NCBI RefSeq assembly: GCF_001591405.1
Contig: NZ_BCUV01000002.1
Location: 372,001-436,000 of the forward strand
DNA from: Janibacter terrae NBRC 107853
GTDB taxonomy: Bacteria > Actinomycetota > Actinomycetes > Actinomycetales > Dermatophilaceae
Reading direction: 5' to 3'
DNA: 64,000 nucleotides
The number at the start of each line of letters is the position of its first letter. Position 1 is the stretch's first letter. The notes beneath the pieces were generated by a model, which saw only the letters and a list, made by a program, of their open reading frames with translations, did not search any database and was not told where the DNA came from. Shown in pieces: positions 1 to 63,661 of this stretch. The position numbers and the translations under genes are program-made.

Positions 1-692
1 TGCAGCACGAGGATCGAGTCGGTGCGGGCCCCGCCGGTGTCCTGGCCGGTGCCGAGGCGGTTGCGCTCCTTCGCGCTCAGCCCCTCCCGCGAGTCGCTGC
101 CGACGAGGAGGACATTGCGTCCCTCGCCCCCGCTCGGACGCTCTCCGGCGGGGGTCGCGTCGACCTTGGCGACGTGGGACCACGCGGAGTTGACCGCCCA
201 GACCATCGCGCCGCCCCAGACGAGGACCAGCACGAGCACGCACGCGAGGAAGGTCCGCATCGGACGCCGGCGACGCGTGCCGCCCGTCGGTCCGTCGCCC
301 GCCGGCCGGGGGGCGGGTCGCCGCGGACCGCCGCCACCGGGGGGCGGACCCTGACGACGTGGGGTCTCACGGTCCTCACGGACGGGGCGCGAAGGGGGAG
401 TCCCCGCGGGCATGACCCGCGTCCGGGGCTCCTCGGCCGGCCGGCGAGACGAGGCCGCCGCGGGGCGCGACGACGCCGCGCCCCGCGGGCGCGGGCGGCC
501 GCTCGTCGGGACGTCGCCCCCCTTCGTCCCCTGGGGGCGTGGACGCGACCGCTTGCCGGTCGGGATGGCGCGCGCGGTCTCGTCGTCGCGACGACCCCTG
601 CGGACGTCGAAGACCATCGGGTCGTCCTCGCCGCGCCGTCGAGGAGATCGGTCGCCGGGGGACCGACCGGGGCGGGAGGGGCGCTCAGACAT
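1..692 (-). CDS. LytR-CpsA-Psr (LCP) family protein, 3' end outside window
   Basis: LCP enzymes transfer lipid-linked glycans (teichoic acid or arabinogalactan type) onto peptidoglycan at the outer membrane face. From the ATG at 690-692 the protein begins with about 144 basic, Pro/Arg-rich, probably cytoplasmic residues, then one membrane segment (about 147-167). The extracellular LCP domain opens at residue 192 with RNVLLVGSDSREG and continues through GARTDSILVL, the family's N-terminal hallmark with the phosphate-binding Arg/Asp residues. The window edge cuts the gene at about residue 230. The long disordered tail is common in actinobacterial LCPs. It is divergent from the glycosyltransferase at 786. 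No good Shine-Dalgarno is visible. A competing reading frame across this stretch lacks the LCP motif. Confidence 0.9.
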   Translation of the reverse strand, partial: MSERPSRPGRSPGDRSPRRRGEDDPMVFDVRRGRRDDETARAIPTGKRSRPRPQGTKGGDVPTSGRPRPRGAASSRPAAASSRRPAEEPRTRVMPAGTPPSRPVREDRETPRRQGPPPGGGGPRRPAPRPAGDGPTGGTRRRRPMRTFLACVLVLVLVWGGAMVWAVNSAWSHVAKVDATPAGERPSGGEGRNVLLVGSDSREGLSAKERNRLGTGQDTGGARTDSILVL

Positions 693-772
693 GACGACGA
701 GGATAGGAGCAATGACTGGGAGAGCGCAGGACGGTGGCGGCGAGTCCGCGGCACCGTCCGCGTGACCTTGTC

Positions 773-778
773 CATACT
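773..778 (+). promoter_or_regulatory. -10 element of leaderless glycosyltransferase gene
   Basis: CATACT lies 7 nt before the GTG at 786, the spacing expected if transcription starts at the start codon. Confidence 0.5.
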
Positions 779-785
779 GGAGCGC

Positions 786-1766
786 GTGCCTCCCCGCGTC
801 AGTGTCGTCATGCCCGTCCTCAACGAGGAGCGCCACCTCGCCGACGCGGTCCGGATGGTCCTGCGCCAGGACTGGCCCGGCGAGCTCGAGCTGGTCCTGG
901 CGCTCGGCCCGTCGACGGACGCGACCGACGAGGTGGCGGCCGGCCTCGCGGCCACCGACCCGCGGGTGCGCACCGTCGCCAACCCCTCCGGGCGCACCCC
1001 CGACGCGCTCAACGCGGCGATCGAGGCCTCGACCGGCGACGTCGTCGCCCGCGTCGATGCCCACGCGGAGATCCCGGTCGACTACCTGAGCCGGGCCGTC
1101 GCGGTCCTCGAGGAGACCGGCGCGGACAACGTCGGCGGGATCATGGACGCGGTCGGCACGACCCCGATGGAGAGCGCCATCGCCTGCGCGATGAAGAGCC
1201 CCCTCGGCGTCGGTGGGGCCCGATTCCACACGGGCGGGGGTGCCGGCGAGGCGGACACGGTCTACCTCGGGGTCTTCCGCCGGTCCGCGCTCGAGCGGGT
1301 GGGTGGGTACGACCCGCACTTCGAGCGGGCGCAGGACTGGGAGATGAACCACCGCCTCCGCAGCTCCGGCGGCCGGGTCTGGTTCACCCCCGAGCTCGTC
1401 GTCACCTACCGCCCGCGGCCGAGCCTGGCCCGGCTCGCCGACCAGTACCGCGGCTACGGCCGGTGGCGGCGGGTCGTCGCCCGGCGTCACCCGGGCACCG
1501 CCAACGCCCGCTACCTCGCCCCGCCGACGATGGTCGCGGGCACCCTCGCGGCGAGTGCGCTCGGTCTCGTCTGGCGGCCCGCGTGGGCCGTGCCGCTCGG
1601 CTACGCGGCGGCCGTCACGGTCGGCGGGTGGCTCATCTCGAAGGGGGAGGACCCCGCCGTGCGCGTCCGGGTCCCGGCCGCGATCGCCACGATGCACTGG
1701 GCCTGGGGTCTCGGTTTCCTCACGAGTCCTGCCGAACTTGGTCAAGCCCTTCCGGATCGGGGCTGA
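786..1766 (+). CDS. family 2 glycosyltransferase (ExoA-like)
   Basis: A 326-residue GT2 enzyme, probably adding a sugar to a lipid-linked envelope glycan at the inner membrane face. The GT-A start SVVMPVLNEERHL is at residues 6-18, the metal/nucleotide motif VDAH near 90, the acceptor-side motif QDWEMNHRL near 183, and hydrophobic C-terminal segments from about 250 to 295. It resembles succinoglycan-type ExoA enzymes, but the substrate cannot be told from sequence. GTG 786 is chosen because a -10 box sits 7 nt upstream; GTG 762 is an in-frame alternative. The frame stays open far upstream, but those residues show no family similarity. Confidence 0.85.
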   Translation: MPPRVSVVMPVLNEERHLADAVRMVLRQDWPGELELVLALGPSTDATDEVAAGLAATDPRVRTVANPSGRTPDALNAAIEASTGDVVARVDAHAEIPVDYLSRAVAVLEETGADNVGGIMDAVGTTPMESAIACAMKSPLGVGGARFHTGGGAGEADTVYLGVFRRSALERVGGYDPHFERAQDWEMNHRLRSSGGRVWFTPELVVTYRPRPSLARLADQYRGYGRWRRVVARRHPGTANARYLAPPTMVAGTLAASALGLVWRPAWAVPLGYAAAVTVGGWLISKGEDPAVRVRVPAAIATMHWAWGLGFLTSPAELGQALPDRG

Positions 1767-1785: not shown

Positions 1786-3948
1786 ATGCCCCCCCTCTCG
1801 TCCGTGCGGTTCCGACGTGCCCTCGTCGCGGCCCTCGGCTCCCTCGCCCTGCTGCTCACCGCAGCACCCTCCGCCGCGCCCGCCGTGACCGGCACGACCG
1901 GCACGACCGCCAGCAGCGGCGCGGCCGCGGTGCCGTCGTCGTGGACCTTCTCCGGACGCGGCTTCGGCCACGGGGTCGGGATGAGCCAGTACGGCGCCTA
2001 CGCCCAGGCCAAGGCCGGGTGGACGGCCAGGGAGATCCTCGCCTTCTACTACCAGGGCACGACCTACGACGCGGTGGTCGACACCCAGACGATCCGGGTC
2101 AACGTCGTGCGCGGCGCGAGCACGGCGAGCATCGCCGGCCTCGCGACGGGGACGAGCGGCGGCAGGCTGACGATCACCGCCGGCGGGCGCACGATGACCT
2201 CTGCCGCGGGCCAGACCGTCAGCCTGCGCCGCTCCTCGGGCAGTGTCGTGGCGACCTGCTCCGCCTGCTCACCGACCTCGGTGACCGGCACCTCCGTCTC
2301 GGTGACCTGGGACGAGTCCCGGACCGACCTGTCCGTGGGCGGGCGTCGCTACCGTCATGCCCCCTTCGTCGTGACGCCGACGCCGGGCGCGGCGACGCTC
2401 GAGGGGGTGCTGCACCTGCAGCTCTCCAGCGAGTACCTCGACCAGATCCGTGAGGTCCCGTGGTCCTGGCCCGACGCGGTGCTGCAGGCGCAGGCCGCCG
2501 CCGCACGCAGCTACGCGCTGCGCAAGGTCGCCGCCGGCGTCCGCTCCTCGTGCGCCTGCCACGTGACCGACGGCCAGGGCGACCAGGTGTACGGATCGGT
2601 GCCGACCGGGGCCGAGGCGGCCGCCTGGCCGCGCTGGCGTGCCGCGGTGGCCGTGGGGGGCGACCCGAGCACGGGGTTCGTCCCGCGGTACGGCGGCCAG
2701 GTCATCGAGGCGCTGTACTCCTCGTCCTCCGGCGGCCGCACGGTCGCCAACGAGGACGTGTGGCTCGGCGGCGCCCCCGTGCCCTACCTGCGCAGCGTCG
2801 CGGACCCGTGGAGCCTGACCGCGGACAACCCCCGGCGCTCGTGGACGACGACCGTGACGGGCAGCCGGGTCGCTGCGGCCTTCGGCCTGCCGGACGTCGT
2901 CTCGCTGCGGCTGTCCGACCGCTCGAGCGCGGAGACGGTGCGACAGGCCACCGCGACCTCCTCCTCGGGGGCGACGAGCACCCGCAGCGGCAACGCGATG
3001 CGGAGCGCGCTCGGGCTGTCGTCCGCGTCGATCCACCGGCCGATCTCCCGCGTCGCGGGCAGTGCACCGGCCGACCTGGTCGCGGCCTCGGCGCAGAGCG
3101 CCCCGAGCACCGCCGGCACGGTGGTCATCGCCAGCAGCTACGAGGCGGACGTCCCGCACCTGCTGATGGCCCGGCCGCTCGCCGGCTCGCTGCGCGCCCC
3201 GCTGCTGCTCAGCGGTCGCTCGTCGCTCACCTCGTCCGCCGTGCGCGAGCTCGACCGCCGCGGGGGCACCATCACCCGTGCCTACCTCGTCGCCGGCTCA
3301 CCCATGGTCGGCAGCTCGGTCGTCTCCCAGCTGGAGCGACGCGGCATCACCGTCACGCGGGTCGGCCTGTCCGACCGGGACGCCACGGCCGCGGCCGTCG
3401 TCGACCTCATGGAGGCCACGGTCGGGGTGTCCACGGCCGCCGCCTCGACCCGTGACACGGCGCCCGAGGCCGGCGCCTTCTCGGCCGTGGCCGGCGTGCG
3501 CCGAGAGCCGATCGTCTGGGCCGGCGCGACGAAGGTCGGCTGGCGGGCGCGGGCCGCGCTCCAGCGCGCGGGCGTCCGCACGGTCCGGCTGCTGGGCCCG
3601 ACGAGCCGCATCTCCGCCGACGTCGCCACGGACCTCACCGGCCGCGGGTTCCGGGTGACCCGGTTCTCCGGGTCGAGCGCCTCGCTCGTCTCCGCGCAGA
3701 TCGCGGAGTACTTCCGCAACAGCTACCGGGGCGACACCGTCGTCCTCGCCCGCTCGACGAGCACGCGCACCTCGGACCCGGTCGCTGCCGCCGGCTACGG
3801 CCTGCCGGTCCTCGTCCTCACGGGCACCTCGGCGCCGGGGTCGGTGACCTCGCTCGTGCAGCGCAGCCCGCAGTGGCCGCAGGTGCGGGCGATGGGGTCG
3901 ACGTCGAGGGTGACCTCCGCAGCCCTGGTCAAGGTGCGCGACGCCTGA
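1786..3948 (+). CDS. secreted SpoIID/LytB-domain protein with cell-wall-binding repeats
   Basis: A 720-residue exported protein. MPPLSSVRFRRALVAALGS starts a clear signal peptide ending near residue 35. The SpoIID/LytB signature GRGFGHGVGMSQYGAYAQA falls at about 57-75, followed by AAARSYALRK. In the SpoIID family this domain is a lytic transglycosylase acting on peptide-stripped glycan strands. The last 300 or so residues contain repeats resembling cell-wall-binding repeat 2 (LLSGRSSLTSSAVRELDR and VSQLERRGITVTRV type), likely anchoring the protein to the wall. In a non-spore-former this is a wall-remodelling or scaffold protein rather than a sporulation factor. ATG 1786 follows the glycosyltransferase by 19 nt, and the pair may be co-transcribed. 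Confidence 0.88.
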   Translation: MPPLSSVRFRRALVAALGSLALLLTAAPSAAPAVTGTTGTTASSGAAAVPSSWTFSGRGFGHGVGMSQYGAYAQAKAGWTAREILAFYYQGTTYDAVVDTQTIRVNVVRGASTASIAGLATGTSGGRLTITAGGRTMTSAAGQTVSLRRSSGSVVATCSACSPTSVTGTSVSVTWDESRTDLSVGGRRYRHAPFVVTPTPGAATLEGVLHLQLSSEYLDQIREVPWSWPDAVLQAQAAAARSYALRKVAAGVRSSCACHVTDGQGDQVYGSVPTGAEAAAWPRWRAAVAVGGDPSTGFVPRYGGQVIEALYSSSSGGRTVANEDVWLGGAPVPYLRSVADPWSLTADNPRRSWTTTVTGSRVAAAFGLPDVVSLRLSDRSSAETVRQATATSSSGATSTRSGNAMRSALGLSSASIHRPISRVAGSAPADLVAASAQSAPSTAGTVVIASSYEADVPHLLMARPLAGSLRAPLLLSGRSSLTSSAVRELDRRGGTITRAYLVAGSPMVGSSVVSQLERRGITVTRVGLSDRDATAAAVVDLMEATVGVSTAAASTRDTAPEAGAFSAVAGVRREPIVWAGATKVGWRARAALQRAGVRTVRLLGPTSRISADVATDLTGRGFRVTRFSGSSASLVSAQIAEYFRNSYRGDTVVLARSTSTRTSDPVAAAGYGLPVLVLTGTSAPGSVTSLVQRSPQWPQVRAMGSTSRVTSAALVKVRDA

Positions 3949-3963: not shown

Positions 3964-4009
3964 ACGACGAAGGGGGCCCGGGTCACGTGACCCGGGCCCC
4001 CTTCGTCGT
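3964..4009. terminator. 46-nt perfect palindrome between convergent genes
   Basis: Arms 3964-3986 and 3987-4009 are perfect reverse complements of 23 nt meeting at a central CACGTG. The palindrome separates the SpoIID gene (ends 3948) from the converging CoA-transferase operon (ends 4018), so it probably terminates both. No U-tract follows, as is usual in actinobacteria. Each arm carries the 9-mer CGAAGGGGG, making an inverted pair of that repeat. Confidence 0.85.
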
Positions 4010-4017
4010 GGTCGTGC

Positions 4018-4658: not shown

Positions 4659-5468
4659 TCAGGCCCCTTCCTTCGTCGACGTGACGGTCCGCTTCTCGAT
4701 GCGCTTGTCCGCGGCCTGCTCGGGCGTGAGCGGCAGGACCCGCTGCACGTAGATCCCGGGGAGGTGGACGGAGTCGGGGTCGAGCTCACCGGGCTCGACG
4801 AGCTCCTCGACCTCGGCGATCGTCACGCGGCCGGCCTGGGCGCACAGGGGGTTGAAGTTGCGCGAGGTGGTGCGGAAGACGAGGTTGCCGTGCCGGTCGC
4901 CCTTCCAGGCGCGCACGAGTGCGAAGTCGGTGGCGATGGCCTCCTCTAGGACGAACTCGTGGTCCTCGCTCGTCGTGCTCCCGTCGGCCTGGCGGCTCTT
5001 GACGGCGAAGGTGCGCGTCTCCTTGGCCGGCGAGGCAACCGAGATGTTGCCCTCGGCGTCGTAGCGCCACGGCAGACCGCCGTCGGCGATCTGGGTGCCG
5101 ACGCCGGTGCGCGTCCAGAACCCGGCGATGCCGGCGCCGCCCGCCCGCAGCTTCTCGGCGAGGGTGCCCTGCGGGGTGAGCTCGACCTCGAGCTCGCCCG
5201 AGAGGTACTGGCGGGCGAACTCCTTGTTCTCCCCGACGTAGCTGGAGACCATCCGCCGGATCTGGCCGCCGGCGAGCAGGACGCCCAGGCCCCAGTCATC
5301 GACCCCGCAGTTGTTGGAGACGCACTCCAGGTCGCGCACCCCCTTCGCCTGCAGCTCGGCGATGAGCACGCTCGGGATCCCGCAGAGCCCGAACCCGCCG
5401 ACCGCCAGTGTGGCGCCGTCACGGATGTCCGCGACGGCCTCGGTAGCAGTGGAGATGACCTTGTCCAT
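4659..5468 (-). CDS. scoA: 3-oxoacid CoA-transferase subunit A
   Basis: The alpha subunit, 269 residues. [14 protein letters not shown] near residue 24 is the glycine-rich CoA-binding loop of the family. [40 protein letters not shown] (split over neighbouring positions) and the [17 protein letters not shown] block confirm it. It is slightly longer than typical bacterial subunit A because of an insert around [16 protein letters not shown]. The start at 5468 ([15 protein letters not shown]) is supported by a -10 box 7 nt upstream; longer in-frame extensions have no family support. It forms a two-gene operon with scoB. Confidence 0.92.
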
Positions 5469-5481: not shown

Positions 5482-5619
5482 GAGGTCCGGGGAGGCGGCG
5501 CGGGTGTGCTCGGCACACACCGTCCCGGGCGAAGGGGGTGCGCCCCACCCGTGCGTCGCCGCCGGTCACGGCGGTGAACCACAGGGACGTAATTCCACCA
5601 GTGGGTCTGGCGTGTCTGG

Positions 5620-7421: not shown

Positions 7422-8122
7422 CTGCGTGCCCGGCGGGCGAGGGTCGCCTCGTCATCCTGGCCGAGGTGCACGACGAGCGAACCGTGCTCGGACCACACGG
7501 CGAGGGCGGTGCGCAGCAGCGCCTCGGGAGAGGGGTCGACGAGCTGGACGCGCGCCCCCTTCGACCCGGTGCTCCCGACCGTGCTGCCGCCGGTGCTCAC
7601 GACGCGTGCGTAGGTGGCCTGCTCGCCGCCCACCCGCAGCGCGACGTCGTCGCCCTCGGGCTCGGCCCAGGGCGTGAAGTGGTCGCCGTGCGAGGCGAGC
7701 TCCGCCGCCTCGTCCATGACACCGTCACGGACCTCGACCGCGGCCCAGCGGGCGAGGGCGGCCCGGGTCACGAGGACGGCGGGGCCGTCGTCCGGGAGCC
7801 GCTCCGGGTCGTCGGTGACGACGAGGTCGGCGGCGGCCGGGTCCTCGAGGTCGAGGACGGCGCCGACGGACCACACCGCCCAGGCCCAGTAGAGCAGCCG
7901 CCAGTGCGGCCGCATCGCGACGTGCACGACGGAGCCGGGCTCGATGTCCCACTCCTCCTGCAGGGCGTTGGCCGCCTTGCTCACCCAGGTGCCCAGGACG
8001 CGCCCGGACAGCTCCACGCGTTCGCCGGCGGTCGGGCCGGGCAGGTCGTCGTAGCAGGTGATCCGCGGGGCGGCGGAGTCGGCGGCGTTGATCGCGGCGA
8101 GGACGTCGGCGGGGGTCGGCAT
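7403..8122 (-). CDS. TIGR03089 family protein
   Basis: 239 residues. It matches the actinobacterial TIGR03089 family, which resembles the N-terminal part of AMP-dependent acyl-CoA synthetases but lacks the C-terminal catalytic half. Recognisable parts are ITCYDDLPGPTAGERVELSG near 22-41 (quoted as the family opening), VSKAANALQEEW, and the AHWxLLYWAWAVW-like membrane-proximal helix near 75-90. Biochemical role is unknown. In mycobacteria the homologue (Rv3268) lies beside an LCP gene, and here an LCP gene is 7 kb away in the same envelope block. It is divergent from the membrane glycosyltransferase at 8172. The start is supported by TAGGCT 6 nt before the ATG. Confidence 0.8.
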   Translation of the reverse strand: MPTPADVLAAINAADSAAPRITCYDDLPGPTAGERVELSGRVLGTWVSKAANALQEEWDIEPGSVVHVAMRPHWRLLYWAWAVWSVGAVLDLEDPAAADLVVTDDPERLPDDGPAVLVTRAALARWAAVEVRDGVMDEAAELASHGDHFTPWAEPEGDDVALRVGGEQATYARVVSTGGSTVGSTGSKGARVQLVDPSPEALLRTALAVWSEHGSLVVHLGQDDEATLARRARSEGVTA

Positions 8123-10290: not shown

Positions 10291-12228
10291 ATGAGCGCGC
10301 ACCTCGCCCCCGATCCCGGCGACCGTCCCGGTGACGCCTCGCTGAAGATCGCCGTCGTCGGTCCCACCCACCCCTACAAGGGCGGCGTGGCCTCGCACAC
10401 GACGACCCTCGCCCACGAGCTCGAGGCCGCCGGCCACGACGTGACGCTCGTGTCGTGGAGCCACCTCTACCCGAGCTTCTTCTACCCGGGCGAGCAGTCG
10501 GTCCCGAGCCAGGGGGACCCGGACGTGCCCCCCTTCCCCCGCACCGTCCGCGCCCTGTCGTGGGCCCGGCCGGACACGCTCCTGAGCGCGGGCCGGCGGT
10601 TGCGGGACGTCGACCTCGTCATCGTCGTCCACGTCATCCCGCCGGTCGTGCCGCTGCACCTCATGCTGCTGCGGGCCGCCGGCGTCGGGCGCACCGCGAT
10701 GTCCGGACGGGGCCCGCGCAGCGTCGTCATCGCGCACAACGTCCTGCCGCACGAGCCGCACCCGGGTGACGCGGCGCTCATGCGGACCCTCTTCCGGCGC
10801 GTGGACGCCGTGCTCGTCCACTCCGCCGAGCAGTCGCGCCTCGCTCGCGAGCTCGACGCCGACCACGTCGTCGTCACCGACCTGCCGCCGCACCTGCCCG
10901 GTGGTGACCCCGCCCCGCGCCCCGCGCACCGCGGCCCCGCCCGGCTCCTCGCGCTCGGCCTGGTGCGGGGGTACAAGGGCATCGACGTGCTGATGCGGGC
11001 CATGCTGCGCGTGCCGGACGTGACCCTGACCGTCGCCGGCGAGATCTGGGGCGACGCGGGCGAGGAGCTGCGGACCCTCGCCGAGCACCGTTCCCTCCGC
11101 GACCGCGTGCGCATCCACAGCGGCTACGTCCCGGCCGACCGGATCGCCGCCCTCCTCGCGCAGCACGACGTGCTCGGCCTGACCTACCGCAGCGCGACCG
11201 CGAGCCAGAACGTCCTGCTCGCCCACCAGCACGGCCTCGCGGTACTCGCGTCCGACGTGGGGACCTTCGGCGACCAGGTCACCGACGAGGTCGACGGCTA
11301 CCTCGTGCCCCCGGCGGACGAGGACGCGGTCGTCGCCGTCCTCGAGCGGCTGCGCGAGCCCGCCGAGGTCGAGCGCATCCGCGCCGGCATCACCCCTCCC
11401 GACCTGCACGCCCCGTGGGCCCGCTACGTCGGCTCGCTCGAGGCGCTCGCCGCCGCGGACCTGCAGGCCGACCCCACGGCCCGCCCGGTCGTGCGCCGGC
11501 GCTCGCGCCTGGGTCGGGTCGCCGACCGCGCCGAGGACCTCGTGACGCTCGCCAGGCTCGCCCGTGACCGTCGCCGACCGCGGCTCGACCTCGGTCGGGC
11601 CGACTTCCCGTCCTGGCTGCGCGCCACCGACGTGCTCGCGCACGACGAGGAGGCCGTCCGCGCCCGTGAGCTCGCCCGCGAGCTCGGCCTGCCCCGTGGC
11701 GGCGACGCGATCGCGGAGTGGGCCGCCCTCGGGGCCCTCGGGGTGCTCGTCGGCATGCGTGACGACCGGCGGCGCGAGGCCCTGATCATCGACGCCTCCG
11801 GCGCGGGGTCCCCCTTCGGGCGGTGGGCCCGGGCCGCCGGCTACGTGCCCGTCGAGGTCGAGCTGCGGGGCTCCCGGTCGTCGATGACGCTCCTCGACGT
11901 CGACACCGCCACCCTCGACCTCATCACGCGTCTGCACCCCGACGACGCGTCCGCCGCAGACATCGACGAGACGCTGACCCAGGCGGGCTGGGCGCTGCGC
12001 GCCGGCGGCCTGCTCTGCCTCACCCTGCCCGTCGGCGGCACCGGGAGCGACGTCGTCGGCGGGGCGGCCGACCTGCGGGCGGTCGTCGCCCGGGCCGCCG
12101 ACGCGGGCTTCACCCTCGTCGGCGACGTGGACGGGGACCTCACCGCCCGGCTGCGCCACGCGTCCAGGGTGAGCACCGAGCCCGAGGCCGCCCACGCCCT
12201 CGTGCGCCTCACCTTCGCGCGGCGATGA
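10291..12228 (+). CDS. GT4 glycosyltransferase fused to a methyltransferase-like C-terminal domain
   Basis: 645 residues in two parts. Residues about 18-390 are a GT-B retaining glycosyltransferase: the N-terminal loop VVGPTHPYKGGVASHT near 21-36, the second Rossmann half beginning ARLLALGLVRGYKGIDVL, and VLASDVGTFGDQV plus GYLVPP in place of the usual E-x7-E region. Residues about 450-645 look like a divergent class I methyltransferase (ALIIDASGAGSPFGRWARA as nucleotide loop, then WALRAGGLLCLTLPVGG), lacking a canonical GxGxG. Its stop overlaps the next gene's start (ATGA), so it is coupled to the flippase-like protein. The activity of the second half is uncertain. Confidence 0.8.
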   Translation: MSAHLAPDPGDRPGDASLKIAVVGPTHPYKGGVASHTTTLAHELEAAGHDVTLVSWSHLYPSFFYPGEQSVPSQGDPDVPPFPRTVRALSWARPDTLLSAGRRLRDVDLVIVVHVIPPVVPLHLMLLRAAGVGRTAMSGRGPRSVVIAHNVLPHEPHPGDAALMRTLFRRVDAVLVHSAEQSRLARELDADHVVVTDLPPHLPGGDPAPRPAHRGPARLLALGLVRGYKGIDVLMRAMLRVPDVTLTVAGEIWGDAGEELRTLAEHRSLRDRVRIHSGYVPADRIAALLAQHDVLGLTYRSATASQNVLLAHQHGLAVLASDVGTFGDQVTDEVDGYLVPPADEDAVVAVLERLREPAEVERIRAGITPPDLHAPWARYVGSLEALAAADLQADPTARPVVRRRSRLGRVADRAEDLVTLARLARDRRRPRLDLGRADFPSWLRATDVLAHDEEAVRARELARELGLPRGGDAIAEWAALGALGVLVGMRDDRRREALIIDASGAGSPFGRWARAAGYVPVEVELRGSRSSMTLLDVDTATLDLITRLHPDDASAADIDETLTQAGWALRAGGLLCLTLPVGGTGSDVVGGAADLRAVVARAADAGFTLVGDVDGDLTARLRHASRVSTEPEAAHALVRLTFARR

Positions 12229-13225: not shown

Positions 13226-14074
13226 ATGTCTGACTCCACCTCCTCCGGCCAGGTCGCCGCACCCCCGGGTGGTCGCCTCCTGGCGCTCGCCAAGCGCGCC
13301 GCCGAGCACGCCCTCTGGGGCCGCGTCGCGGTCCAGCGGCGCCTCGAGGCCAGGGCGAAGGGGGATCGTCCCGCGCCGACGACCGTCGCCCCGACCGGTG
13401 TGCTCACCGACGCCGCGGCGTGGCGGCGTGCGGCCGACGAGGCCAAGCGCCTGCGCCTGCCGCTCCACCGGGACCTGCCCAAGAACTGGGACGCCCTCGG
13501 TGCCGTCGGCGCCGTCCTCGACCTCGTCGACGACGGGACGCGCAGCGCGCGGGTCATGGACGCCGGCTCGGCGCGCTACTCGCCGGTCCTGCCGTGGCTG
13601 CGGCTCTACGGCTTCGGCTCCACGCCGGGCTCGCTCATCGGGATCAACCTCGAGTTCGGCTCGCAGGTCACCCGCGACGGCGTCGTCTTCCGCTACGGAG
13701 ACGTGACCGACACCGGGTTGCCGAGTGGCCACCTCGACGCCATCACGTGCATGTCGGTCATCGAGCACGGCGTGCCCCTCGAGGGGTTCATCGCCGAGTC
13801 GGCGCGGCTGCTGCGCCCCGGCGGGGTCCTCGCGGTCTCGACCGACTACGACCAGGACCCGCCGGACACGACCGGCAAGGAGATCTACGGGTCGCAGGTC
13901 CACATCTTCTCCCCGGCGGAGATCCGCGACCTCGTGGCGCTGGCCGAGCGGCACGACCTCGAGCTCGTCGGCACCCTGGACGACGCGGCCCTGGCGCACA
14001 CCGAGCGACCCGTGCACTGGACCAGGGTCGACCTCGACTACACCTTCATCCTGCTGACCTTCCGCCGCCGCTGA
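13226..14074 (+). CDS. class I SAM-dependent methyltransferase
   Basis: 282 residues. The Rossmann methyltransferase core is visible: ARVMDAGSARYSP near 109-121 (motif I, with G-S-A instead of GxGxG), LDAITCMSVIEHG near 170-182 (post-motif II) and ESARLLRPGGVLAVSTDY near 190-207 (motif III). The first 90 residues are basic and helical. It lies at the end of the envelope glycan block, so a sugar or lipid-linked acceptor is likely but not shown by sequence. Confidence 0.85.
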   Translation: MSDSTSSGQVAAPPGGRLLALAKRAAEHALWGRVAVQRRLEARAKGDRPAPTTVAPTGVLTDAAAWRRAADEAKRLRLPLHRDLPKNWDALGAVGAVLDLVDDGTRSARVMDAGSARYSPVLPWLRLYGFGSTPGSLIGINLEFGSQVTRDGVVFRYGDVTDTGLPSGHLDAITCMSVIEHGVPLEGFIAESARLLRPGGVLAVSTDYDQDPPDTTGKEIYGSQVHIFSPAEIRDLVALAERHDLELVGTLDDAALAHTERPVHWTRVDLDYTFILLTFRRR

Positions 14075-37364: not shown

Positions 37365-40136
<2,772 letters not shown>

Positions 40137-41477: not shown

Positions 41478-41500
41478 CGCTGCCCCCTTCGTATCCTCGG

Positions 41501-54757: not shown

Positions 54758-55156
54758 GTGACCCCCAGCCAACCCCCTTCGCACCCTCGCCCCGCCGTCC
54801 TCGCCGCCGCCGGGGTATGCCTCCTGCAGGTCCTCATGCTGCTCGTCACGGCCGGTCTGTACGCCCTGGAGCTGACGCGTGGGGACGGTGAGGACCCGAG
54901 CACCGCCTCGATGACGATGGTCGTGTGCATCATCTTCGCGATCCTGCTCGCGGTGCTCGCCTCGGCCTGGTTCAAGGGCGCCTCGTGGCCGCGCACGCCG
55001 ACCATCGTGTGGAATGTCCTGCTCCTGCCCGCCGCGTGGACACTCGCGACGAGCAGCGGGCTCTGGTTCGGCCTCGGCCTGGCCGTCCTCGCGCTCGTCG
55101 GGATCGCCGCCGCCCTCCTCACGCCCGTGCCCGAGCTGCCGGACCGGGCCCTCTGA
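54758..55156 (+). CDS. hypothetical four-helix membrane protein
   Basis: 132 residues. Four predicted membrane helices: LAAAGVCLLQVLMLLVTAGL near 15-34, MVVCIIFAILLAVLASAWF near 54-72, IVWNVLLLPAAWTLATSSG near 83-101, and FGLGLAVLALVGIAAALL near 104-121. The N-terminus is Pro-rich and cytoplasmic, the C-terminus short (TPVPELPDRAL). It resembles the many small actinobacterial membrane proteins with no known role. The amidase start follows its stop by 1 nt. Confidence 0.7.
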   Translation: MTPSQPPSHPRPAVLAAAGVCLLQVLMLLVTAGLYALELTRGDGEDPSTASMTMVVCIIFAILLAVLASAWFKGASWPRTPTIVWNVLLLPAAWTLATSSGLWFGLGLAVLALVGIAAALLTPVPELPDRAL

Positions 55157-55157: not shown

Positions 55158-56954
55158 ATGGCTCCCTTCGACGTCGTCGAGGCGGACATCGCCTCCCTCC
55201 GGGCTGCGCTGGAGAGTGGGGCGACGACGAGCGAGGAGCTCGTCACCGCCTACCTGGCCCGCATCGCCGCCTACGACAGCGCCGGCCCGCGGCTCAACGC
55301 CGTCGTCGTGCCCAACACCGCGGCCCTCGACGATGCCCGCGCCAGCGATGCCCGCCGGGCGAAGGGGGAGACCCTCGGCCCGCTCGACGGCATCCCGTAC
55401 ACGGCCAAGGACTCCTACCTGGCCACCGGGCTCACCTGTGCCAGCGGGTCGCCGGCCTTCGCCGACCTCGTCGCGCAGCGCGATGCCTTCACCATCGAGC
55501 GGCTGCGCGGCGTCGGCGCGGTGCTCATCGGCCTGACCAACATGCCGCCGATGGCCAACGGCGGCATGCAGCGCGGGGTCTACGGCCGGGCCGAGAGCCC
55601 CTACAACGGCGACTACCTCACCGCGGCCTTCGGCTCCGGCAGCTCCAACGGCTCGGGGACGGCGACGGCGGCGAGCTTCGCGGCCTTCGGCCTGGGGGAG
55701 GAAACCTGGTCCTCCGGGCGGGCGCCGGCGAGCAACAACGCGCTGTGCGCCTACACGCCCTCGCGGGGCGTGATCTCGGTGCGGGGCAACTGGCCGCTCG
55801 TGCCGTCGATGGACGTCGTCGTGCCGCACGCGCGGACGATGGCCGACCTGCTCGAGGTGCTCGACGTCGTCGTCGCCGACGATCCGGACACCACGGGTGA
55901 CCTGTGGCGCACCCAGCCGTGGATCGAGGTGCCCGCGGCCTCGCAGGTGCGGCCGGAGTCCTACCCGGCACTCGCGCAGGACGGCGCGGCGCCGCTGCGC
56001 GGGCTGCGACTCGGCGTGCCGCGGATGTACCTCGGCACCGATGAAGGGGCGGGCACCGGCGTCGGCTTCGGTGGACCGATCGGTGAACGGATCGTGCCGC
56101 GGCCCAGCTCGCTGGAGCTCTTCGCGGCGGCGCGGGCGGACCTCGAGGCAGCGGGGGCGGAGGTCGTCGAGACCGACTTCCCCGTGGTGTCCAACTACGA
56201 CGGTGACCGTGCCGGTGCGCCGACGATCGCGACGCGCGGCCAGCTCCCGGAGGGCTATCTCGAGGAGGAGATCTGGGAGCAGTCGATGTGGGGGTGGGAG
56301 ACCTTCCTGCGGGCCAACGGCGACCCCGCGCTGCACCGGCTCGCCGACGTCGACGGCCCGCGGATCTTCCCGCACCCCGAGGGCGCGCTGCCCGACCGCT
56401 ACGGCGAGCTCGACTTCGACCTCGCCGACTACGTCACCCGGGCGCGGCAGGCAGGGGTGGTCGAGGACGTCACGACCCTGCCCCTGCTCGAAGGGGGTCT
56501 GCGTGGCCTGGAGGAGACGCGCCGCGTCGACCTCGAGGCGTGGATGGACGACCTGGGGCTCGACGCGGTGATCTTTCCGGCGGTGGCCGATGTCGGGCCG
56601 GCCGATGCGGACGTGCGTGAGGAGTCGGCCGACCTCGCGTGGCGCAACGGCGTGTGGGTGGCCAACGGCAACCTCGTGCCCCGCCACCTCGGCATCCCGA
56701 CGGTCACGGTGCCGATGGGCACGATGAGCGACATCGGCATGCCGATCGGGTTGACCTTCGCCGGGCGCGGCTGGGAAGACAACCGCCTGCTGACGATCGC
56801 CGCGGCCTTCGAGGCGACGGGTCAGCGGCGCACCGAGCCGCCGCGCACGCCGCGGCTGGAGAAGTCTGCGTGGGTCTTGGTCCCGGTTGGGTCTCGATCG
56901 CCCGGTTGCCGCGGGCAGGCGTTGACGGGCCGACTGTCTGACGCCACGGTATGA
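55158..56954 (+). CDS. amidase-signature hydrolase
   Basis: 598 residues. The amidase catalytic triad is recognisable: Lys in LDGIPYTAKDSYLATG near 83, the Gly/Ser-rich FGSGSSNGSGTATAASFAA near 156-174 with the bridging Ser, and the nucleophile in GEETWSSGRAPASNNA near 179-194. NADGVI-type substrate blocks cannot be assigned, so the amide substrate is unknown. ATG 55158 directly follows the preceding stop. The last 25 residues (VPVGSRSPGCRGQALTGR) look unlike family C-termini and read into the edge of the low-GC insert, so the end may have been altered. Confidence 0.85.
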   Translation: MAPFDVVEADIASLRAALESGATTSEELVTAYLARIAAYDSAGPRLNAVVVPNTAALDDARASDARRAKGETLGPLDGIPYTAKDSYLATGLTCASGSPAFADLVAQRDAFTIERLRGVGAVLIGLTNMPPMANGGMQRGVYGRAESPYNGDYLTAAFGSGSSNGSGTATAASFAAFGLGEETWSSGRAPASNNALCAYTPSRGVISVRGNWPLVPSMDVVVPHARTMADLLEVLDVVVADDPDTTGDLWRTQPWIEVPAASQVRPESYPALAQDGAAPLRGLRLGVPRMYLGTDEGAGTGVGFGGPIGERIVPRPSSLELFAAARADLEAAGAEVVETDFPVVSNYDGDRAGAPTIATRGQLPEGYLEEEIWEQSMWGWETFLRANGDPALHRLADVDGPRIFPHPEGALPDRYGELDFDLADYVTRARQAGVVEDVTTLPLLEGGLRGLEETRRVDLEAWMDDLGLDAVIFPAVADVGPADADVREESADLAWRNGVWVANGNLVPRHLGIPTVTVPMGTMSDIGMPIGLTFAGRGWEDNRLLTIAAAFEATGQRRTEPPRTPRLEKSAWVLVPVGSRSPGCRGQALTGRLSDATV

Positions 56955-58837: not shown

Positions 58838-61800
58838 GGTGCGTGGCTCGCATCTCGACCCATGGAAGCGCGACCTGCACCTCATCCGCTGGCCCGTCGA
58901 CGACGAGGTATCCCCGACCGGCCACGCGCGGCAGCGGCGGGACCCGCAGGCCCAGGGCGTCGCCGTCGGAGCGAGCCGACGGCTGGAGCAGCAGGCCGGT
59001 GCGGGTGCGCGCGAGGTCGGAGACCAGCCCGCGCACCTGGCCGACGGCCGTCTGGGTGGCCGTCGCGCCGATGACGAGCCCGCGGTCGGCGTCGAGCCGG
59101 CGCAGGATCTCCTTGAGCACGTCGGCGACGGGGGCGCCCTCGAGCCGGTCGAGGTCGTCGGCGATGACCGCGAGGTCGGGGTGCCTCTGGCGCATGGCGA
59201 TCAGCTCGTCCCGGTCGTCCGCACCGAGGACCGGGCAGTCGAGCCCGTCGGCGATCGCCCCCGAGCCGACGACGACGAGCGGCGCCCCGGAGGCGGCCAC
59301 CTGACGGGCGAGCAGTGCCAGCGTCGTCGACCGGCCGCTGCGCGGCGGGCCGCAGACGAGGAAGCGCCGCGCGCCGTCCGTCCGCCACACCACCGGGTCG
59401 CGACCGGAGCCGCCGAGCCCGAGCGGGATCCGCTCCCGCGCCGCTGCGGGCAGCACGTCGGGCGGCACCGACCCGGGGAGCTCCTCGACGACCCACGGCG
59501 GCACGGTCGCTTCGCCCCCTCCAGAGGGGGCAAGTGACGGCAGCGCCACCTGCACGAGGTCGCCGCCCGGCTTGAGCCGAGCTCGCCCGGCGACGAGCCG
59601 GTCGGAGACCTCGGTGCGGGTGAGCCCGGCCAAGGCGGCATCGCCCCGGTCGCTCAGGTGCAGCACGAGGCGGGTGCCGACGAGGGAGGAGACCCGGCCG
59701 GACAGCAGCTCGCGGCCACCCGCAACGACAACGCGCAGCCCGAGGGCGACGCCGTCGCGCATCAGCGTCTCGAGGGACTCGGCCGTCTCGCCGAGGTCGA
59801 GCGAGCCGCGCGGTCGCGTCACCCGACCCCAGCCGTCGATCGCCAGCAGCAGGTGCGGCGGGGGCAGCGGACCCCCTTCGCTCTCGTGGGTGGCCCACCA
59901 CGCGTCGAGGGTCGGGTGACCACTGGCCCGCAGGGCCACCCGTCGCGCCGCGAGGTCGGACTCGAGACGCTCGAGGAATCGGCCCACGACCGTCGGTTCC
60001 TCCCCGTCGACGATGCTCCCGACGTGCGGCAGGGCGGACAGCCCGGCCAGCCGCGCGGACCCGTCACCGACGACCTGCACCTGCAGCCGGTCCGCCGACC
60101 ACCGGTGCGCGGCAGCGGTGACGAGCGAGGCGAGGGCCGTGGTCCGGCCGGAGCCGGGACCGCCGACGAGCATCCAGTGCCCGTCGGTCGTGGCCCACTC
60201 CAGCGGCGACTGGCGCTGCTGCGCCGGCAGGTCCACGAGGCCGAAGGGAGCCCCCGTCGCCTCGTCGTCGGGTAGCCGCGCCGCCTCGATGGTCTCCGGC
60301 AGCGGCGGCAGCCAGGGTCGGTGGGGTGCCGGGATGGCCAGCGACTGCGCCACCCGGGTCATCGTGCGGGCGAGACGCTGCAGGTCGGTCGGTCCGAGGT
60401 CGTCGACGACGGGCGGCGCGGGCCAGGCCTCGCCGGGGTGGCGCACGAGCAGCGCACCGCCGACACCAGCGGCGTGCCCGGCGACCCGGCCCGTCTGGAA
60501 GGCACGCGGCGGACCACCACCGGTGCTCGCCAGGGCCCGGCCGGGAGCCGTCTCGGGGATCTCGGCCGCGTCGGGGCAGCCGATGACGTCGTCGCTGTCG
60601 GCACGGTCGCGTACGCGCAGCGCGATGCGCAGGTTGACGTTGGCCTTGATGTCCGCGGAGACGATGCCGCCGGGTCTCTGGGTCGCGAGCACGAGGTGCA
60701 CGCCGAGCGAGCGGCCCACGGCGGCGATGCGCATGAGGTGGGCCATGACGTCGGGCTGCTCCTCGGCGAGCATGCGGAACTCGTCGATGACGATCATCAG
60801 CCGGGGCAGCAGGTCGCCGCGGTGGTCGTCGATGTCCTTGGCCCCCGACGCGGCGAGGACGTGCTCGCGGCGGGTCAGCTCGGCGTCGAGGCTGGTCAGG
60901 GCGCGCTCGGCCGCGGCGGGGTCGAGGTCGGTGAGCATGCCGACGGTGTGCGGCAGCCGCGCGCACTCGGCGAAGGCCGCCCCGCCCTTGTAGTCGACGA
61001 GGACGAAGGTCATCTCCTGCGGCGACAGGCGCGTCGCGAGCGCCGCGACCCAGCTCTGGAGGAACTCGGACTTGCCCGACCCGGTCGTGCCCGCGACGAG
61101 GGCGTGCGGCCCGTCGCGGCGAAGGTCGATGCGGAAGGTGCCCTCGCCCGCGGCCCCCACGACGACCTCGAGGTCGTCGCCAGCAGAGCACCAGAGGCCG
61201 CGGATCTGTTCCTCGTCGTCGGGATCGAGATCGCCCAGGTCGACGAGCCGGGCGGCCCAGGGCAGGCCGGCGCCCTGCGCGTCGGGCGTCGCGTCGCGCA
61301 GCGGCAGCAGCGCGGCGGCGATGCGGCGCGCCCACGGCTCGCCGGTGCCGTCGAGCACACCCCGCGCCGCCTGCTCGCCGGCGAGCAGCAGCCGCAGGTC
61401 GTCGCCGGCGAGGACGGCGACCGCGCGGGCCTCGTGCGGCAGGTCGGCGGGGGTGTCGGCGAGGGCGATGACGAGGACGCGCTGGGGGCCCCCTTCGCTC
61501 ATGATCGTGCGCAGCCCGGGGTCGGTCCGCCACGCACCGGCCCCGTCGACGACGACCACCTGGGCGACGGGCAGCGGATCGCCCTCGCGGCGTCGCTCGG
61601 GCCCGCTCGCGGCGCGTTCGGTGGTCAGGCGGGCGAGCCCGGCGAGCAGCGCGGCGCCCGCCTCGGGGTCGGTCGCGACCCGTGCGGACCCCGGCAGGTC
61701 GTCGTGTGCGCGCAGGTGCACCAGGCCGGCGAAGGGGGACCACCACCCGTCCTCGTCCGCGACCACGCCCACCCGCACGTCGTGGTGGGAGTGCAGGACC

Positions 61801-63002
61801 ACGAGCCCCCCGAGCAGATGGCGCGCGAGCCGGTCACGGGAGGCGCGTGGACCCGCGATGCCGAGCACCGCGATGTCCGCCAGGTCGACCGTCAGGGGGA
61901 CGTCCTCGAGCACCGGGTGCTCGCGCACGCCGGCGCGGTGCTCGACCTCGAGCCGGGCGGGCAGCGCCCCGAGGCCAAGCCGCAGGCACAGGTGCTCCTC
62001 GTGCTGGGCGCGCCTCTCCCACAGGCGTGCCGACTCGCCGCGAGCCGCGTCCTGGAGGGCCGAGGCGTCGGGTGCGGCGCGCAGGCGTTCGCGCCGCTCG
62101 TCGGCCAGGGCCGCGGTGAGCCGCTCCCCGGCGCGGGCGCGCTCGCGGACCCACGACGCGTGGGCCTCCCGGTGCTCGCGGCGCGAGCTCGTGCGGTCGG
62201 AGAGCGTCGAGCCGAGGACGAGCAGCGGGGAGAGCAGGCCGAAGAGCAGCATCCGCGGCCCGAAGAAGTAGGCCAGCACCCCCGCGAAGGGCAGCGGCAG
62301 CAGCACCATGACCCAGGGGATGCGGCGGCGTGCCGGCGGCCTGGGCTCCTCGGGGACCCGGATCGTCGTGGGCTTGCCGGTGCGGGGCAGGTGCGGCGTC
62401 GGGTTGACGCCCAGGGTGCCGTCGCCGGTCGCCACCGGTCGGGTCGGCCGCGGCCGGTGGGCCTCGACGGCGAAGGTCGTGTGCCCCGCCCGCAGCTGGC
62501 TCCCGGCACGCACCCGCACCCCGTCGGTGGGGACGGTCGCGTCGTCCACGCGGGTGCCGTTGGTCGTGCCGAGGTCGCGCAGGTGCACCCCGTCGCGGTC
62601 GACGGCCAGCTCGAGGTGCTCGCGGGAGAGCGCGTCGTCGGCGACCCGCAGCGTCGCGGCGTCGCCGCGGCCGATGGTGTGACGACCGGAGGTGAGCTCG
62701 TGGGTGCGACCGGCGTCGGGCCCGCTGAGCGTGACGAGGCGAAGGGGGGACCGCCGGGCTGCTCGCGTGGTGGGCTCCCGGGCAGGGCGCATGGCGTCGA
62801 GGACGAGCGCGGCGCCGTCGAGCAGGGGTGGGAGCCCGACGGGCGCGTCGGGAGTGAGGCGCTGCGGCCCGACCCGGACGGTCGCGCCCGGGCGCCCGGC
62901 CGCGGCGAGCAGGTCACCGAGGGTGTGGTGCTCCTCGGCGAGGACGTCGATCGTCTCGGTCCCCCCGCCGCCGGCGTCGATGATCGTCATCCGCAGCTGC
63001 AT
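58821..63002 (-). CDS. FHA-domain FtsK/SpoIIIE ATPase, EssC/EccC-like
   Basis: 1393 residues. N-terminal ubiquitin-like part (1-75), then FHA (about 92-180: GRHTIGRGDAATLRV, LSREHLEL, LGTTNGTRV), two membrane helices (about 230-268) and three ATPase modules. Module one is complete: GTTGSGKSE near 636 and LMIVIDEFRML. Modules two and three have Arg for the Walker A Lys (GGPGSGRTT near 946, GPPRSGRST near 1217). This is the layout of type VII secretion motor proteins of the EssC kind. The ATG is leaderless (TACCGT 6 nt upstream). The 3' end overlaps the insert lipoprotein gene. Confidence 0.88.
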   Translation of the reverse strand: MQLRMTIIDAGGGGTETIDVLAEEHHTLGDLLAAAGRPGATVRVGPQRLTPDAPVGLPPLLDGAALVLDAMRPAREPTTRAARRSPLRLVTLSGPDAGRTHELTSGRHTIGRGDAATLRVADDALSREHLELAVDRDGVHLRDLGTTNGTRVDDATVPTDGVRVRAGSQLRAGHTTFAVEAHRPRPTRPVATGDGTLGVNPTPHLPRTGKPTTIRVPEEPRPPARRRIPWVMVLLPLPFAGVLAYFFGPRMLLFGLLSPLLVLGSTLSDRTSSRREHREAHASWVRERARAGERLTAALADERRERLRAAPDASALQDAARGESARLWERRAQHEEHLCLRLGLGALPARLEVEHRAGVREHPVLEDVPLTVDLADIAVLGIAGPRASRDRLARHLLGGLVVLHSHHDVRVGVVADEDGWWSPFAGLVHLRAHDDLPGSARVATDPEAGAALLAGLARLTTERAASGPERRREGDPLPVAQVVVVDGAGAWRTDPGLRTIMSEGGPQRVLVIALADTPADLPHEARAVAVLAGDDLRLLLAGEQAARGVLDGTGEPWARRIAAALLPLRDATPDAQGAGLPWAARLVDLGDLDPDDEEQIRGLWCSAGDDLEVVVGAAGEGTFRIDLRRDGPHALVAGTTGSGKSEFLQSWVAALATRLSPQEMTFVLVDYKGGAAFAECARLPHTVGMLTDLDPAAAERALTSLDAELTRREHVLAASGAKDIDDHRGDLLPRLMIVIDEFRMLAEEQPDVMAHLMRIAAVGRSLGVHLVLATQRPGGIVSADIKANVNLRIALRVRDRADSDDVIGCPDAAEIPETAPGRALASTGGGPPRAFQTGRVAGHAAGVGGALLVRHPGEAWPAPPVVDDLGPTDLQRLARTMTRVAQSLAIPAPHRPWLPPLPETIEAARLPDDEATGAPFGLVDLPAQQRQSPLEWATTDGHWMLVGGPGSGRTTALASLVTAAAHRWSADRLQVQVVGDGSARLAGLSALPHVGSIVDGEEPTVVGRFLERLESDLAARRVALRASGHPTLDAWWATHESEGGPLPPPHLLLAIDGWGRVTRPRGSLDLGETAESLETLMRDGVALGLRVVVAGGRELLSGRVSSLVGTRLVLHLSDRGDAALAGLTRTEVSDRLVAGRARLKPGGDLVQVALPSLAPSGGGEATVPPWVVEELPGSVPPDVLPAAARERIPLGLGGSGRDPVVWRTDGARRFLVCGPPRSGRSTTLALLARQVAASGAPLVVVGSGAIADGLDCPVLGADDRDELIAMRQRHPDLAVIADDLDRLEGAPVADVLKEILRRLDADRGLVIGATATQTAVGQVRGLVSDLARTRTGLLLQPSARSDGDALGLRVPPLPRVAGRGYLVVDGPADEVQVALPWVEMRATHLTPQR

Positions 63003-63008
63003 GAGGGC

Positions 63009-63014
63009 ACGGTA
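63009..63014 (-). promoter_or_regulatory. -10 element of leaderless FHA-FtsK gene
   Basis: Minus-strand TACCGT is followed by 6 nt and the ATG at 63002. Confidence 0.6.
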
Positions 63015-63064
63015 GGTCGATCGCCCTCATCGACCGCGGGAGTTGTCCACAGGCCCGGCCGGGC

Positions 63065-63661
63065 TCAGTCGTCCAGCCCCCGCGCGGCGAGGGCGTCGCC
63101 CATGGCGTCGGCCCGCCTCAGGGCGCCGACGACGAGCGGCACGGCGAAGGCGCGTGGGCTCGCCCCGAGGCCGCGCGCGTGCTGCGCCTCGCGCACGCGG
63201 CCGCCCAGGTCGATGACGAGCGGCACGGCGCGGATGGCCAGCTGCAGCATCAGGCCGACGCGCTCGGGGTCGACGCCGACCCGTCGCAGCGGCCCGCACA
63301 CCCGCACGACGACGTCGATGAGGTCGCTCGTACGGGTCGTGAGCGTCACGAGGTTGGCGAGCAGCACGAGCGCGATGAGGACCCCGACGATGACGAAGGC
63401 CCGCTCCCAGCCCGCGACCACCGTCTGGAAGACCCCGAGCGGCACCATGACGAGCAGCAGCGGGCGCAGCATCTGCAGCAGCACCGCCGCCGGCATCTGC
63501 GCGGTCGCGTAGCCCGCGAGCACCACGGCCAGGGCGACCGCGGTCACCACCGGCGAGCGGACGAAGGGGGAGACCAGCCCGGCGAGCAGCAGCCCGGCGA
63601 GCTTCGCACCGGCCGGCAGCCGGTGCAGGAGCGACCCGCCGTCGCGGTAGAGCCCGATCAC
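63065..63661 (-). CDS. energy-coupling factor transporter transmembrane protein (EcfT/BioN-like)
   Basis: 198 residues: [20 protein letters not shown] at the start (typical of BioN), several helices ([39 protein letters not shown]), and the coupling motif [20 protein letters not shown] with AQHARGLG near the C-terminus. EcfT joins the ATPases to a vitamin-binding S component. The N-terminal sequence favours a biotin (BioMNY) system, but no bioY is in view. GTG 63661 overlaps the ATPase stop (GTGA). Confidence 0.87.

Follow-up and report, generated by a model that had tools for sequence, protein, structure and literature searches.

The window and its word

The present article concerns CGAAGGGGG, a nine-base, non-palindromic word that recurs throughout 64,000 nucleotides of the genome of the actinobacterium Janibacter terrae NBRC 107853 (contig NZ_BCUV01000002.1, positions 372,001 to 436,000; hereafter, the window) and that we consider a candidate DNA-uptake signal. 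Exact copies number 35 in the window, 17 on the plus and 18 on the minus strand, and they are listed here with the hairpin formed by one inverted pair and with a competence-related gene.

390..398, plus strand, CGAAGGGGG copy, intergenic
518..526, minus strand, CGAAGGGGG copy, intergenic
1639..1647, plus strand, CGAAGGGGG copy
2360..2368, minus strand, CGAAGGGGG copy
3968..3976, plus strand, CGAAGGGGG copy, left arm of an inverted pair between convergent genes
3997..4005, minus strand, CGAAGGGGG copy, right arm of the same pair
3964..4009, no strand, perfect 21-bp stem formed by this inverted pair between convergent genes, terminator-like without a T run (folding of 3952-4021: -57.1 kcal/mol, z -7.3)
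5339..5347, minus strand, CGAAGGGGG copy
5530..5538, plus strand, CGAAGGGGG copy, intergenic
7555..7563, minus strand, CGAAGGGGG copy
11810..11818, minus strand, CGAAGGGGG copy
13356..13364, plus strand, CGAAGGGGG copy
14158..14166, minus strand, CGAAGGGGG copy
20092..20100, plus strand, CGAAGGGGG copy
23515..23523, minus strand, CGAAGGGGG copy
24871..24879, plus strand, CGAAGGGGG copy
25420..25428, plus strand, CGAAGGGGG copy
29151..29159, minus strand, CGAAGGGGG copy
33693..33701, plus strand, CGAAGGGGG copy, intergenic
33738..34493, plus strand, comFC-like phosphoribosyltransferase gene (Pribosyltran, E 3.4e-8)
34063..34071, minus strand, CGAAGGGGG copy within the comFC-like gene
36330..36338, minus strand, CGAAGGGGG copy
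40055..40063, plus strand, CGAAGGGGG copy within secA
41483..41491, minus strand, CGAAGGGGG copy, intergenic
42660..42668, plus strand, CGAAGGGGG copy
44015..44023, minus strand, CGAAGGGGG copy
47714..47722, plus strand, CGAAGGGGG copy
49508..49516, minus strand, CGAAGGGGG copy
51873..51881, minus strand, CGAAGGGGG copy
54773..54781, minus strand, CGAAGGGGG copy, intergenic
55360..55368, plus strand, CGAAGGGGG copy
56489..56497, plus strand, CGAAGGGGG copy
59872..59880, minus strand, CGAAGGGGG copy
61489..61497, minus strand, CGAAGGGGG copy
61730..61738, plus strand, CGAAGGGGG copy
62740..62748, plus strand, CGAAGGGGG copy
63562..63570, plus strand, CGAAGGGGG copy

The original prediction, made from the letters of the window, had counted 34 copies, 17 in each orientation; the balance stands, and only the count needs correction. 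Its expectation of about two copies in a random sequence of this length agrees with simulations under Markov models of order 1-4, which give means of 1.0-2.1 copies and a maximum of 5 (15 runs each). It was also right that GAA is a rare codon for glutamate here (36 GAA vs 902 GAG among the training codons) and that a gene of the comFC kind is present. Of the inverted pairs in terminators that it named as a trait of uptake sequences, the terminator-like pair at 3968 and 3997 is an example. Absence of the word from a low-GC insert was not clearly borne out: of the 2-kb bins below 69% GC, the one at 38001-40000, inside secA, holds no copy and the one at 56001-58000 holds one.

When the called genes of the window were resampled with the window's own codon usage and with their proteins unchanged (a null model also applied to the 344 kb described below), 4.0 +/- 1.6 copies were obtained (maximum 8, 200 runs), compared with the 27 observed. 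A maximum-order Markov ranking of the window did not bring out CGAAGGGGG, because its sub-words occur almost solely within CGAAGGGGG itself.

The comFC-like gene, whose name we assume from its domain and from synteny, is flanked by a Germane-domain (LpqB-like) gene and an S30AE (hpf) gene, the latter followed by SecA. On the minus strand, at 58821-63002, an FHA domain and three FtsK/SpoIIIE stretches occur in what we take to be an EssC-like gene, presumably the ATPase of type VII secretion.

Counts and anatomy of the word in the genome

The over-representation claimed for the window extends to the whole genome. In its 3,576,202 bp (genome G000 of our sample), CGAAGGGGG occurs 1,797 times (905 forward and 892 reverse), or once per 1,990 bp, whereas the reversed word, used as a control, occurs 22 times (14 + 8), an 82-fold difference. 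The anatomy of the word was analyzed with our own gene caller in 344 kb of this genome (the window and 14 further stretches), where 118 of 153 copies lie in called genes and 35 are intergenic, a 2.1-fold over-representation given that intergenic DNA makes up 10.9% of the sequence. Per kilobase, convergent gaps hold 1.69 copies, tandem gaps 1.06, and divergent gaps 1.18, compared with an overall average of 0.47. As predicted, copies occur in genes of both strands and in several frames (58 sense and 60 antisense, with all three frames used), and their spacing is near-random (coefficient of variation of the gaps, 1.02). Because equal forward and reverse counts in a whole genome cannot exclude skew along the replichores, strand balance was judged on local stretches, and the predicted lack of skew was found there as well: 102 copies on one strand and 98 on the other in 21 stretches, which come from two genera and seven genomes (chi-square 9.6).

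The conserved sequence is longer than the word, with an extended consensus of GRCGAAGGGGG. Position -2 is G in 78% of genic and 77% of intergenic copies (153 genic and 47 intergenic copies were compared), position -1 is a purine in 79% and 87%, respectively, and G is depleted directly 3' of the fifth G. In the outer flanks, genic copies show the three-base rhythm of codons, and all remaining positions within 12 bases of intergenic copies carry at most 0.17 bits. To judge variants, we set 608 kb of the two genera that carry the word (without the stretches L013-L016 of the comEC element described below, and with the overlap with the window trimmed from L153) against 1,336 kb from the family's other genera, namely 68 of the 88 negative loci (GC >69%). 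CGAAGGGGG itself occurs 287 times in the former and 24 times in the latter. Most of its 27 one-base variants are rare, and three are clearly enriched: CGAAGGGAG (78 vs 6), CGAAGGGGA (44 vs 17), and CGAAGGGGT (49 vs 17). The other variants reach at most 4.6-fold, with small counts for most. Preceded by GR, CGAAGGGAG occurs 42 times vs once and CGAAGGGGT 34 times vs once. These counts suggest that recognition involves roughly GRCGAAGGGGG and that its 3' end is tolerant, in that AG, GA, or GT would be accepted at the last two positions.

Twenty pairs of copies lie no more than 60 bp apart, compared with about eight expected at random, and 15 of them are in hairpin order: nine are intergenic (five between convergent genes) and six lie inside called genes. 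Separately, near L014:2575 and L016:7072, two pairs of copies exactly 833 bp apart are accompanied by two similar patches of lower GC, with 44 kb between them, which suggests a duplicated or tandem element.

Dialects within the family

We counted CGAAGGGGG in 659 genomes of the class (G000-G658), 119 of which represent 53 genera of the family. Only eight are enriched, with 1,265-1,939 copies each: all five sampled genomes of the window's own genus (g1) and all three of the neighboring genus g38, so that the word is indeed present in close relatives, as had been anticipated. The other 111 genomes of the family hold 11-80 copies, none of the 229 genomes from the order's other families exceeds 101, and the class sample reaches at most 231, in a genome that also has 139 copies of the reversed control. 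Among the named matches listed for the LeuS of G117 (g1), the closest came from an Intrasporangiaceae bacterium (72%) and from Austwickia (68%), and the family probably corresponds to the Dermatophilaceae of GTDB.

Scans for frequent k-mers at the comEC loci (14-20 kb) of 40 other genomes of the family revealed another word with balanced strands, GTATGCCG, which about half of them share (19/40, from the top k-mer lists). In the 119 whole genomes, GTATGCCG exceeds the threshold in 31 of the 53 genera (322-4,724 copies, with the strands balanced), whereas all eight CGAAGGGGG genomes hold it at background (7-41 copies); it is also at background in the 139 genomes counted from 19 further families. 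Two further words each differ by one base from GTATGCCG, to which CGAAGGGGG is unrelated. GGATGCCG reaches 2,099-4,480 copies in g17, g27, and g44, compared with about 240-1,340 elsewhere, and GTACGCCG reaches 785-4,185 copies in g40, g48, g24, and g25 and in part of the species of g26 (one of three) and g3 (two of four), compared with at most 752 elsewhere. Altogether, 38 of the other 51 sampled genera carry GTATGCCG, GGATGCCG, or GTACGCCG in some 300-4,700 copies. A genome was scored as word-bearing when it held at least 300 copies of GTATGCCG and at least 2.4 times the control, or when it was among the eight CGAAGGGGG or seven GGATGCCG genomes; the GTACGCCG genera g3, g24, g25, g40, and g48 were added by eye (at least 700 copies and at least 4.5 times the control in at least one genome). 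Five further words, GTATGACG, GTATGCGG, GAATGCCG, CGATGCGG, and GTACGGCG, are leads from samples of 20-80 kb. Since GGATGCCG and GTATGCCG occur mixed in species of g44, and some g26 species carry GTATGCCG and others GTACGCCG, switches of dialect happen inside genera.

In an unrooted tree of LeuS and ComEC from 40 genomes (G000 excluded), three g1 genomes and two of the three g38 genomes were grouped beside the GTATGCCG genus g43. The third g38 genome, G037 (L017), which also lacks the tad cluster B described below, was grouped with g44, apart from its genus-mates, and a transfer is possible. Three other observations concern the words themselves. All six GTATGCCG copies in L131 (G015, g16) are intergenic and extended to GTATGCCGCTSRGC, and they may belong to a repeat family that incorporates GTATGCCG; in other genera, the copies are mostly genic. 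In some GTATGCCG genomes, GTACGCCG is rarer than its reversed control (91 vs 205 in G043, 39 vs 98 in G029, and 54 vs 146 in G109), as though words one base off were subject to conversion or avoidance. In L120 and L143, from two genera, the palindrome GCGATCGC or GGCGATCGCC is moderately over-represented.

Conservation of sites within and between dialects

In alignable DNA, CGAAGGGGG sites were unchanged in 66 of 197 comparisons between g1 genomes (13.7% for flanking words), in 27 of 64 within g38 (14.7%), and in 21 of 115 from g1 to g38 (10.4%), as opposed to 4 of 190 when g1 and g38 were left for six GTATGCCG genera (8.0%). Among those six genera, 136 of 272 comparisons retained the GTATGCCG site (11.8%), whereas none of 417 with the CGAAGGGGG genera did (10.5%), and the reversed control word was kept in 4/22 and 0/33; these comparisons reuse sites and are not independent, and their p-values are descriptive only. 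On this evidence, the force that maintains each word appears to be present in one dialect set and absent from the other. GTA and TAT are poor codons at the given base composition, and fast decay is therefore expected once the maintaining force is gone.

Competence genes and two tad clusters

ComEC, DprA, and tad genes are close to universal in the family. A comEC gene was found in 115 of 119 genomes, and ComEA at 46 of the 47 com loci, the locus of G000 being the exception; all 16 genomes tested for DprA and all 30 tested for PF00437 (TadA-like) ATPases have them. The ComEA and ComEC domains were verified in G117. There are two tad (tight adherence pilus) clusters, of which A lies at L023:11099-14827 in G000 and B at L153:9226-13832, 3.2 kb past the end of the window. 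In two g1 genomes (L193:10865-12310 in G038 and L195:11183-12634 in G117), a gene of about 480 aa lies on the opposite strand between tadC and flp of cluster A.

The TadC of cluster B is present in 101 of 119 genomes and is missing throughout six genera (g7, g14, g15, g41, g45, and g49; 13 genomes). None of these six genera carries any of the four tested words, whereas 40 of the 47 genera with cluster B do (Fisher p 7e-5, with no correction for phylogeny); before GTACGCCG was added, the numbers were 0/6 and 35/47 (p 8e-4). It should be mentioned that the idea arose from three genera (g15, g41, and g45), before the full test; the remaining three (g7, g14, and g49), tested alone, give a Fisher p of 0.006. 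This co-occurrence is the best link that we found between the word and an uptake machine.

A putative signal for DNA uptake

Features known from DNA uptake sequences recur here: a short non-palindromic word that is over-represented, with unskewed strands in local stretches and copies in genes of both orientations, an intergenic excess with inverted pairs at gene ends, words shared or varied among relatives as dialects, and competence genes in the family. We regard it as quite probable that CGAAGGGGG is a DNA-uptake signal read by the com/tad machine, as the original prediction had proposed in general terms, and this reading is strengthened by the exclusive dialects, the conservation of sites within a dialect, and the co-occurrence with the second tad cluster. 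We also think it fairly likely, taking the parts jointly, that the words represent a third, independently evolved self-recognition system for transformation, the first in monoderms, which would act via tad pili, span most sampled genera of one actinobacterial family, and comprise at least four interchangeable dialects, with one wholesale switch to the unrelated CGAAGGGGG in two neighboring genera.

From the words, their distribution and conservation, the dialect boundaries, and the presence of the genes, we infer uptake, a receptor, and a drive. In a competent cell, a DNA-binding component of the com/tad machine would prefer duplex DNA carrying CGAAGGGGG; candidates for this binder are ComEA and a minor pilin of either tad cluster. 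Once the DNA had been handed to ComEC by the tad pilus and ComEA, a single strand would enter and be loaded by DprA and RecA, and recombination would follow. Because word-bearing fragments would enter preferentially, alleles that create CGAAGGGGG could spread, up to about one per 2 kb, and the word would accumulate chiefly at positions that proteins tolerate and in intergenic DNA, where inverted pairs may double as terminator hairpins. In related genera, GTATGCCG, GGATGCCG, and GTACGCCG would be dialects that bias exchange towards kin.

Several observations weigh against this proposal. First, comEC is split by a mobile element in the very strain of the window: the part from about residue 261 adjoins a serine recombinase and phage-like genes, at least 62 kb of them, and the 80 kb examined at this locus yielded neither the remaining part of comEC nor comEA or leuS. 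The strain may thus have lost competence recently and is possibly not competent now. Second, the presence of comEC does not separate word-bearing from word-less genera, and seven genera with cluster B (g2, g9, g10, g11, g20, g29, and g37) have all four tested words below threshold, although g20, scored as being without a word, is borderline (GTACGCCG 752 vs 163 for the control). Third, the link with cluster B is weaker per genome than per genus (71 of 101 genomes with it and 5 of 18 without it are word-bearing; p 0.001, before GTACGCCG was added), and words occur without cluster B in the near-complete genomes G017, G092, G037, and G047 and in the 68%-complete G085; since genus-mates of each have cluster B, we read these cases as recent losses. 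Fourth, six of the 15 hairpin pairs lie within called genes, and some pairs recur as orthologs in several genomes. The reuse of sites and the uncorrected phylogeny mentioned above count on the same side, as does the search for a receptor: beyond three diagnostic columns in one minor pilin, no dialect signature was found in tad pilins, ComEA, or ComEC.

The other seven CGAAGGGGG-dialect genomes each give one uninterrupted comEC match. The element in G000 (C6:462554-525000, from L013:17554 to the end of L016) is prophage-like or resembles an integrative and conjugative element, encodes a serine recombinase, and is inserted in comEC. It contains 10 copies of CGAAGGGGG vs 31 expected (P 9e-6), yet stands above the background of other genera, and such an intermediate density fits a newcomer, as might be expected. 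In G080, G049, and G095, from other genera, the PF03772 match is broken at nearly the same profile position (27-33), and comEC may be a recurrent integration site.

In the search for the receptor, the ratios of identity within and between dialects are 0.95-1.10 for ComEA, ComEC, LeuS, and 13 tad proteins alike, and diagnostic columns number 0-3 per protein. Most are in TadE2 of cluster B (L153:12916-13356; three vs ten columns conserved in both groups, among 58 usable columns), where three residues near the C-terminus have one state in six CGAAGGGGG genomes (G037 has no such cluster) and another in at least 80% of eight others. TadE2 may be considered a weak lead to the receptor. A 442-aa protein beside cluster B, present at six of six CGAAGGGGG loci and none of 14 others, was rejected as a receptor, being a transporter of the AI-2E type and probably a matter of local synteny.

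Alternative explanations

The alternative that survives best, although we judge it unlikely, is a Chi-like recombination signal, by which a helicase-nuclease of the RecBCD or AdnAB type would spare the chromosome. The word is G-rich, asymmetric, conserved, and sparser in the mobile element, its variants are specific to the family, and the evolution of Chi in Proteobacteria has reportedly been the subject of a published study. Chi words, like the FtsK-orienting polar sequences and architecture-imparting sequences (KOPS/AIMS), are short, frequent, and non-palindromic, and they are skewed along replichores, strongly so in KOPS/AIMS and in an orientation linked to replication in Chi. Neither kind of polarity is seen locally in CGAAGGGGG, since a 75:25 skew would have given a chi-square of about 71 in the 21 stretches. 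The excess over the control also goes beyond that of the Chi sites known to us, and inverted hairpin pairs and a link with tad cluster B are not predicted by a Chi-like role.

A binding site of a chromosome-organizing or nucleoid protein, with a role like that of HIP1 (highly iterated palindrome 1) or another one and none in uptake, would account for the high genome-wide density, the balanced strands, and the random-like spacing, and HIP1 of cyanobacteria is a very frequent word of unclear role. HIP1 is palindromic (its word is GCGATCGC), whereas CGAAGGGGG is not; moreover, the presence of the words tracks tad cluster B, a candidate for the uptake pilus, and a nucleoid protein offers no evident reason for dialects to switch between neighboring genera. 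We find this explanation improbable.

A target of methylation or restriction is very improbable: non-palindromic words of such length could be methyltransferase targets, but restriction would be expected to cause avoidance, and methylation no excess, rather than an 82-fold excess, and neither the conservation of sites nor the hairpin pairs would be explained. A small mobile repeat, of the repetitive extragenic palindromic (REP) or miniature inverted-repeat transposable element (MITE) type, might be imagined from the copies that are paired as hairpins, but such repeats are mostly extragenic and conserved beyond their core, whereas the copies here are mostly single, lie inside genes in several frames, and show no strong conservation beyond 11 bp, which rules this explanation out for practical purposes. 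Finally, a by-product of base composition, codon usage, or protein motifs, to which the preference of in-gene copies for Lys-Gly and Pro-Phe frames and the 58 of 153 copies retained by synonymous shuffling (35 of them intergenic and untouched by the shuffle) might point, is ruled out by the 11-80 copies in the 111 other family genomes and the codon null of the window, in line with the intergenic excess.

Comparison with known uptake systems

If the uptake reading of CGAAGGGGG is true, uptake sequences would have a further origin, in cells that lack an outer membrane and use another kind of pilus, and transformation in the family would have been so common that entire genomes were shaped by it. 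The natural switches of dialect would then be a resource for finding the receptor, and the words would point to past competence in genomes not suspected of it. In the literature searched, from which preprints and most subscription journals were missing, we found no actinobacterial uptake sequence and no match for GTATGCCG, and the matches for CGAAGGGGG were, by title, on unrelated topics. Neisseriaceae and Pasteurellaceae are given as the only families known to have uptake sequences (PMC12616744, 2025), and a second source also names two families (PMC5031613).

The present words differ from the DNA uptake sequences (DUS) of Neisseriaceae in belonging to another phylum with a monoderm wall and in being unrelated in sequence. 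DUS likewise show no strand skew, and the pili of Neisseriaceae are of type IVa, as opposed to the tad pili here. Like the DUS, for which the minor pilin ComP is known, the words occur in thousands of short copies, genic and intergenic, with inverted pairs at terminators and with dialects that follow phylogeny; eight DUS dialects with differences of a few bases have been described (PMC3630211). CGAAGGGGG, in contrast, is no near variant of the other dialects here, and the ATGCCG that GTATGCCG shares with the DUS ATGCCGTCTGAA, as given in PMC5031613, is a chance likeness.

The uptake signal sequence (USS) of Pasteurellaceae has a density similar to that of CGAAGGGGG. It is also a 9-base word, AAGTGCGGT or ACAAGCGGT (PMC12616744), and its mismatched forms are likewise over-represented (PMC1939737). 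The sequences are unrelated, and one family has at least four words here, compared with two types of USS; a counterpart of ComN, the candidate receptor for USS, was not identified among the proteins compared here.

In machinery, there is a likeness to the actinobacterium Micrococcus luteus, in which both tad clusters are needed for transformation (PMC4322843). The main texts of PMC4322843 and PMC8467076 do not contain the term 'uptake sequence'. As in that com/tad system, the family studied here combines ComEA, ComEC, and DprA with two tad clusters (PMC4322843).

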